A stretch of 64,000 nt of DNA, taken from the IMG/VR virus record IMGVR_UViG_3300043449_000843, positions 1 to 64,000 of that record; one strand, 5' to 3'. This DNA comes from a virus. The position numbers and the translations under genes are program-made. Of the stretch, positions 17,630 to 18,647 are shown in pieces (position 1 is the first letter of the stretch; each line of letters starts with the position of its first letter). Under the pieces are notes generated by a model. The model saw nothing but the letters and a program-made list of their open reading frames with translations, ran no database searches and was not told the DNA's origin.

Positions 17630-18586
17630 ATGTCTACTTTTCCTAACAGTCCGCAGCCGCCAATTGGGGTTCCACTACCTCAAAACACAACTTTTAATCC
17701 ACCTAATACCCCTGGTGCTAGTTCTATGCCACAACAGCCACAGGGTAATCCGCTATCTAAATATTTTAGACAGCCAAAGATTTATCTTAGATTACCTAGC
17801 GAGGGGAAATATTATCCTCCAGGAGCTATTGATATACCGGAAAGCGGTGAAGTTCCAGTTTATGCAATGACAGCAAAAGACGAATTACTTTTTAAAACAC
17901 CTGATGCATTATTAAATGGTGAAGCAACTGTTGATGTTATAAAAAGTTGTATTCCTAATATTAAAAATCCTTGGGCAATGCCAAGCATTGATAGTGATGC
18001 TGTCTTGATTGCTATCAGACTAGCAACATATGGTGAAAAGTTAGATATTACTACAAAGGTTCCTGGGACAGGTGAGACAAAAGACTTCCAAATTGATTTA
18101 AGATTGTTATTAGATCAGCTAGTATCATTTAAGTATCAACCTTATATTAATGTAGGTGAAAACATTTCTATAGAAATTAAGCCAACAACATATAAAGAGT
18201 TTACAGAAAACAGTCTTAAAACCTTTGAAGAACAAAAAATCTTTCGATTAGTAAATGACGATAGCATTCCTGACGATCAAAAGCTACAAGCATTTGCTAA
18301 TAGCTTTAAAAAGCTAACTGATATTACTATAGGTCTAGTTGTTAACAGCGTAGTTGCTATCGACACTCCGGACGGAAGGGTTACTAATAAAACTTTTATT
18401 AAGGACTTTTTCGAAAACGCCGATAGCACAACATTTAATGCAATTATTAAGCACTTAGAAAAAATGAAGGAAGAAAGTTCTATCAAGCCCTTAAAGGTAC
18501 AAGCAACTGAGGAAGAGATTGCTGCTGGTGCTCCTGCAGAATATGAAATACCAATAACATTTGATCAATCAAATTTTTTCGGATAA
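17630..18586 (+). CDS. gp26: Baseplate hub subunit gp26 / tail chaperone-like protein (318 aa)
   Basis: After a Pro/Asn/Gln-rich leader (~1-45) comes FRQPKIYLRLPSEGKYYPPG, then VYAMTAKDELLFKTPDALLNGEAT and SCIPNIKNPWAMPSIDSDAVLIAIRLATYG. This pattern is typical of the T4 gp26 family. T4 gp26 is 208 aa and takes part in hub assembly. I chose the ATG at 17630 because GGAG lies six bases before it and the exact late promoter lies upstream; an in-frame TTG at 17618 is less likely. The gene ends in a TTTTTTC run followed by a potential stem and an in-phase -1 frame leading into the 70-codon gene, so a minor 393-residue fusion product may be made. It is adjacent to the tape-measure gene. Confidence 0.8.
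   Translation: MSTFPNSPQPPIGVPLPQNTTFNPPNTPGASSMPQQPQGNPLSKYFRQPKIYLRLPSEGKYYPPGAIDIPESGEVPVYAMTAKDELLFKTPDALLNGEATVDVIKSCIPNIKNPWAMPSIDSDAVLIAIRLATYGEKLDITTKVPGTGETKDFQIDLRLLLDQLVSFKYQPYINVGENISIEIKPTTYKEFTENSLKTFEEQKIFRLVNDDSIPDDQKLQAFANSFKKLTDITIGLVVNSVVAIDTPDGRVTNKTFIKDFFENADSTTFNAIIKHLEKMKEESSIKPLKVQATEEEIAAGAPAEYEIPITFDQSNFFG
18574..18580 (+). promoter_or_regulatory. Candidate -1 ribosomal frameshift heptamer T TTT TTC
   Basis: In the gp26 frame the end reads AAT TTT TTC GGA TAA, so the heptamer at 18574-18580 has the X XXY YYZ phasing required for tandem slippage of two Phe tRNAs. After a -1 slip the next codons are CGG ATA AGA CTC CTT AGC and then the ATG of the 70-aa frame, without a stop. 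Six bases downstream, GACTCCTT (18587-18594) can pair perfectly with AAGGAGTC (18640-18647). The 70-aa gene has no good ribosome-binding site of its own. Confidence 0.6.
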
Positions 18587-18647
18587 GACTCCTTAGCATG
18601 GACATTCAAGAGGTTCTTAAAGAAGTTGATAACCTTGAGAAGGAGTC
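18587..18647 (+). promoter_or_regulatory. Potential frameshift-stimulating stem-loop
   Basis: An 8-bp perfect stem, 18587-18594 with 18640-18647, encloses 45 nt. Within that loop GGTT (18612-18615) can pair with AACC (18631-18634). The spacer to the slippery heptamer is 6 nt, in the range known for stimulatory structures. Confidence 0.5.

Follow-up and report, generated by a model that had tools for sequence, protein, structure and literature searches.

The question raised by this locus is whether a gp26-like gene and the short open reading frame that follows it are two genes, or one gene whose end is read in two frames. The window, by which we mean the whole stretch of 64,000 nucleotides that was analysed, comes from a 66-kb virus record, and the features that bear on this question are as follows:

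14592-17561, minus strand: gene of structural type encoding 989 aa, a candidate tape-measure gene by position only, which the portal gene adjoins.
17630-18586, plus strand: gp26-like gene (PF12322 / phrog_150) encoding the putative short product (TAC-N) of 318 aa.
18574-18580, plus strand: slippery heptamer T_TTT_TTC in the phase X_XXY_YYZ, identical in 102 related loci and in 8 jumbo-phage isolates.
18580-18810, plus strand: -1 frame extension (TAC-C domain) of 76 codons and a stop, containing the 70-aa ORF at 18598-18810.
18584-18586, plus strand: zero-frame stop TAA of the short product, read from the sequence.
18587-18594, plus strand: 5' arm of a predicted stem, GACTCCTT, separated from the heptamer by a 6-nt spacer.
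18598-18600, plus strand: ATG of the 70-aa ORF, unlikely to be a start codon (no Shine-Dalgarno sequence; relatives without a start).
18640-18647, plus strand: 3' arm of the predicted stem, AAGGAGTC, which pairs perfectly with 18587-18594 over 8 bp.

The best explanation, to which we assign a probability of roughly 0.92, is a programmed -1 ribosomal frameshift at T_TTT_TTC that is stimulated by the stem and would yield two tail-assembly chaperones, TAC-N and TAC-NC.

At its 3' end the gp26-like gene has the sequence ATA ACA TTT GAT CAA TCA AAT TTT TTC GGA TAA, followed by GACTCCTTAGCATGGACATT. In direct reading of the window, T occupies positions 18574-18579 and C position 18580, and a single sense codon (GGA) separates the heptamer from the stop at 18584-18586. 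The -1 frame continues as TTT TTT CGG ATA AGA CTC CTT AGC ATG and onwards, with its first stop being the TAA at 18808-18810, and the predicted fusion would therefore consist of 317 + 76 codons, or 393 residues, counted from the ATG at 17630. A search upstream of the ATG at 18598 found no Shine-Dalgarno-like sequence. The original prediction had described an in-phase heptamer near the end of gp26, a fusion of 393 residues uninterrupted by a stop, and a downstream ATG lacking a ribosome-binding site, and all of these hold when the letters are read directly.

Related loci were collected with each of the two proteins separately, and the loci with both parts were kept, resulting in 102 viral-contig loci, 94 of them distinct, in 72 clusters. 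The downstream ORF was in the -1 frame in 102 of the 102 loci, and an in-phase T_TTT_TTC was also present in every one of them, located one to several codons before the gp26 stop. The codon preceding the heptamer varied (AAT, AGT, ACT and GAT in the contigs, CAT and CGT in the isolates) and always ended in T. With the heptamer's first T taken as its starting point, the -1 ORF comprised 77-79 codons in 93 of the 94 distinct loci, and the remaining one ended at a contig edge. The C-domain encoded by this ORF was 44-74% identical within the group of the window and 32-35% identical to those of the phages Phosso and Atu_ph07, and it contains invariant W, RG and P positions; Phe-Phe was invariant in the gp26 of the window group. 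From the codon preferences of these genes one would predict TTTTTTC with a preceding T in about 9% of sequences, as against 100% observed, a comparison that ignores kinship and is to be read qualitatively. The conservation of the heptamer, the -1 phase and the absence of an interrupting stop all extended from the 102 related loci to 16 isolated phages, and the comparisons for which the original prediction had asked thus came out in its favour. Judged by these sequence comparisons, the arrangement of the heptamer and the -1 frame, taken over the whole family, goes far past what chance would give.

Selection on the coding sequence passes from the zero frame to the -1 frame at the heptamer, as the codon periodicity shows. 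The base that follows the heptamer was G in 94 of 94 distinct loci and the next base was free (C in 54, G in 22, T in 10, A in 8), so that the first -1 codon after the heptamer was an Arg codon, CGN, in all 94, and the zero-frame residue at this place was variously Gly, Ala, Val or Glu. Site entropy kept the zero-frame codon rhythm as far as the heptamer and took up that of the -1 frame with the very next codon. If the 70-aa ORF were a small gene of its own, with ribosomes that had terminated at the gp26 stop reinitiating at its ATG, its phase would be incidental, and the -1 selection on the codons between the heptamer and the ATG would not be expected. The closeness of the ATG to the stop, 11 nt past it in the window and overlapping the gp26 TGA in Phosso and Atu_ph07, is what such a gene would have, but the ATG at 18598 was not conserved among relatives (for example, it is AAG in L001), and the first 14 codons of the downstream frame contained no ATG in 73 of the 94 distinct relatives and no ATG, GTG or TTG in 51. 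Because start codons are missing and the -1 rhythm begins at the heptamer, independent initiation is excluded as a general explanation. An independently started gene, which would also leave the invariant heptamer and the stem unexplained, was rejected on these grounds, and we consider it very unlikely.

The stem downstream of the heptamer provided a further line of evidence for programmed frameshifting. The 8-bp perfect stem that had been predicted six bases past the heptamer was confirmed at 18587-18594 and 18640-18647. Taken alone it stood out only moderately (p = 0.013 against dinucleotide shuffles), and the RNA fold of the whole segment of the window had a z of -2.2. For the family, stems starting 3-7 nt past the heptamer were searched for, and the same search moved upstream or downstream served as control. 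The mean best stem score was 18.6 at the heptamer versus 9-12 at the shifted positions, and stems of at least 8 bp with at most one G-U were found in 29 of the 72 clusters versus 0-3 at the control positions. In 37 of the 72 clusters p was below 0.01 against dinucleotide shuffles of the cluster's own sequence, with combined p-values overstating independence because the sequences are related. The simple stem search detected nothing significant at this position in roughly one cluster out of three. Across the family, the 5' arm was located at +5/+6, and the 3' arm was found at a few discrete places, with the last paired base at an offset of about 36, 54, 66 or 73-76 nt from the heptamer; the stem of the window is one of those at offset 66. 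In the three larger stem classes, 82-90% of cells paired, as compared with 29-56% when the partner was slid by 1-3 bases, although these percentages are partly selected for because the classes were drawn from stems already found; the shuffle and position controls of the stem search are free of this bias. In the same classes, changes on both sides were more common in the true pairing than in the slid versions. Compensatory changes are illustrated by GACTCCTT/AAGGAGTC of the window versus GCCTCCT/AGGAGGC in three relatives (L108, L130 and L138). The predicted stem is thus at the expected spacing and covaries in three classes, and it is the family data that are decisive, not the single sequence. 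It recurs in the family with compensatory changes.

The distribution of the 3' arm suggests, tentatively and at somewhat less than even odds in our estimation, that the stimulatory stem is a conserved element that switches between lineages, in which the 5' arm stays fixed and the 3' arm has changed its position repeatedly within the sequence that encodes the C-domain. If this were true, pairing partners that evolved anew would keep a set level of frameshifting, and hence the ratio of TAC-N to TAC-NC, across T4-like phages.

Slippage could in principle take place during transcription instead, with RNA polymerase slipping on T6 and a fraction of the mRNAs losing or gaining a base. All heptamers of the family are homopolymeric T6 or T7, and for this reason the sequence of the site cannot separate the two mechanisms. 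T6 is nevertheless short for transcriptional slippage, which is usual on runs of about 8-9 or more, and the phase, which is always X_XXY_YYZ, and the covarying stem 5-6 nt downstream, which is the spacing expected for a paused ribosome, both speak against a polymerase-based mechanism, to which we give an even slimmer chance than to the separate gene. The notion that the C-domain is no more than a degenerate leftover or a fortuitous ORF, with the heptamer as a by-product of the Phe-Phe invariant in the gp26 of the group, is hardly credible given the conservation of the C-domain, including its W, RG and P positions, and a chance heptamer arising from the Phe-Phe motif was rejected on the observed 100% versus about 9% expected when kinship is ignored.

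A programmed -1 frameshift at the end of gp26 is therefore very likely from the comparative data, from which we infer the slippage of ribosomes and its efficiency. According to this mechanism, most ribosomes would terminate at the TAA at 18584 and produce gp26 (TAC-N, 318 aa), and a minority would slip back by one base, with both tRNA-Phe re-pairing with UUU, and read on to 18810 to produce the 393-aa fusion of gp26 and the C-domain (TAC-NC). The stem 6 nt downstream would stimulate the slippage. By analogy with gpG/gpGT of lambda, the two chaperone forms may coat or recruit the tape-measure protein in tail assembly. A role of the gp26 products as tail-assembly chaperones is likely in view of their family and this analogy.

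The assignment to the family came from matches of the gp26-like protein to Pfam T4_baseplate (PF12322, E 8.8e-14, above the cut-off) and to phrog_150 (baseplate hub, E 4.8e-17). Its AlphaFold2 model (mean pLDDT 85) matched the fold of T4-like 'baseplate hub' proteins in a viral structure library. No meaningful fold match was obtained against the PDB, and a sequence search for relatives of solved structure found none; the chaperone fold is therefore untied to any solved TAC. The model (17630-18580) also matched the fold of long (about 450-690 aa), uncharacterised jumbo-phage proteins from Erwinia Special G, Ralstonia RP12 and RSF1, and Erwinia phiEaH2, and it is possible, as far as the model goes, that these are chaperone relatives in those phages. 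The isolates closest to gp26 were Sinorhizobium phage Phosso, Agrobacterium phage Atu_ph07 and jumbo phages of the RaK2/121Q/PA5oct type, with identities of about 29-33%.

The original prediction had also placed gp26 next to the tape-measure gene. A large gene is indeed adjacent, the divergent 989-aa gene upstream of gp26 near a portal gene of T4 type (PF07230), but its role as a tape measure is suggested by its position and by the annotation of the RaK2 gene at the same position as 'similar to phiFL4A tail tape measure'; searches of the 989-aa protein against Pfam and PHROG families gave no match supporting a tape measure. Farther downstream in the window, a gene for a SegE-like GIY-YIG homing endonuclease (20133-20558, minus strand; PF19835, E 1.4e-31) sits between the structural genes and genes for gene 46/47-like recombination nucleases.

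The 16 isolated phages fall into two sets. T_TTT_TTC followed by a -1 C-domain was found in eight jumbo isolates (RaK2, 121Q, PA5oct, Phosso, Atu_ph07, XaC1, Erwinia pEa_SNUABM_19 and Salmonella Munch), and T_TTT_TTN followed by a -1 C-domain in eight further T4-like isolates (the cyanophages P-SSM2 and S-PM2, the pelagiphage HTVC008M, Cr30, phiM12, phiW-14, phiM9 and DLP6). The junction of S-PM2 carries a 14-bp stem. In the reference genomes, the -1 C-domain is unannotated in RaK2 (L167, 3849-4214) and PA5oct (L165, 3861-4085), and 121Q, XaC1, Munch, Phosso and Atu_ph07 have it annotated as a 'hypothetical protein' of its own. When C-domain profiles were compared, the window group and the RaK2 set were clearly related (hhalign probability 98%), and the match between the window group and the T4/cyanophage set was weak (probability 12%, E 0.0024). 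A link of the window C-domain to those of T4 and the cyanophages, weak by profile, is suggested mainly by position and the shared N-domain. A PHROG search with the C-domain gave scattered weak matches only, and a search for PF12322 in S-TIM5 gave no match.

Other arrangements were also observed at the end of gp26. In the Ackermannviridae Vi01, FKP10, phiDP10.3, phiMAM1 and EspM4VN (L188, L208-L211), a -1 C-domain follows gp26 without a T6, and gp26 ends in [A/G]TT TTC AT[T/C] stop, corresponding to the non-canonical A_ATT_TTC, G_ATT_TTC or G_GTT_TTC, which resembles the GTTTTT motif reported for Vandenendeviridae. In the Rhodothermus phage RM378 (L192, about 1990-2250), TCC TTT TTT TGG is present near the end of gp26, and the C-domain-like ORF after it is in the +1/-2 frame, not the -1 frame.

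In T4 (L170, 3803-5229), genes 26 and 51 are related, diverging members of a single family, with gp51 corresponding to gp26 plus the C-domain. Both proteins match PF12322, and gp51 matches all of phrog_150 (3-281), with gp26 matching 10-236. T4 gene 26 was examined for the heptamer and none was found, which, together with the whole-length match of gp51, indicates that the two forms of T4 come from two genes. T4 and the window thus share PF12322 and phrog_150, but T4 has two separate divergent genes and makes the long form without a frameshift. T4 gp51 has long been described as a catalyst of hub assembly, and this result supports the view that it is the long form of gp26, made by way of separate genes. 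Vladimirov, Gautam and Davidson reportedly found frameshifting to be conserved in several T4-like groups and genes 26 and 51 to be the pair in T4.

Frameshifting of this kind is not new to T4-like phages as a whole. The original prediction knew of no such description for T4-like gp26, and this is contradicted by Vladimirov et al. 2022, by way of two later papers. Vladimirov, Gautam and Davidson 2022 (Virology, PMID 34826709) identified the T4-like tail-assembly chaperone genes, which are of the same gp26/gp51 family as in the window, 'TAC-N genes of T4-like phages' are known to have poly-T slippery sites (PMC12846349), and some T4-like phages carry a short and a long gene without a frameshift (PMC10885494). 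Since both later papers cite the 2022 work for T4-like phages, the phenomenon must be taken as already known. A literature search for frameshifting in RaK2-type phages found nothing relevant. The frameshift proposed for the window is a well-supported new case, on comparative evidence, in a branch for which no description was found. The present analysis contributes the uncultivated and jumbo branch, the unannotated C-terminal ORFs, and the covarying stem whose 3' arm shifts between lineages. The TAC frameshift would then span the uncultivated T4-like branch and jumbo phages of the RaK2/121Q/PA5oct type, in which the C-terminal half is often unannotated or called a hypothetical gene. This large natural set of stems on a common slippery site would make the relation between stem position and frameshift efficiency measurable.

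The analogy with G/GT of lambda that accompanied the original prediction, in which a -1 shift gives a short and a long chaperone, was borne out. In lambda gpG/gpGT, as proposed for the window, the two forms come from one gene pair whose first ORF is left by a -1 shift shortly before it ends, and a long structural gene lies nearby; Xu, Hendrix and Duda are said to have described this TAC frameshift in 2004 as conserved. The slippery sequence of lambda is G_GGA_AAG, from which T_TTT_TTC of the window differs, and family searches gave no sequence relation of the window proteins to lambda G/T. In addition, the putative tape-measure gene is divergent and upstream of gp26 in the window, whereas it is downstream in lambda. 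Another parallel is provided by Vandenendeviridae and Andersonviridae, for which PMC12846349 reports a TAC frameshift at a T-rich site at the end of TAC-N, a -1 frame open in all genomes, and a C-domain mis-annotated as a separate gene. The -1 shift is the same as that proposed for the window, and the differences lie in the GTTTTT motif and in the phage families concerned.
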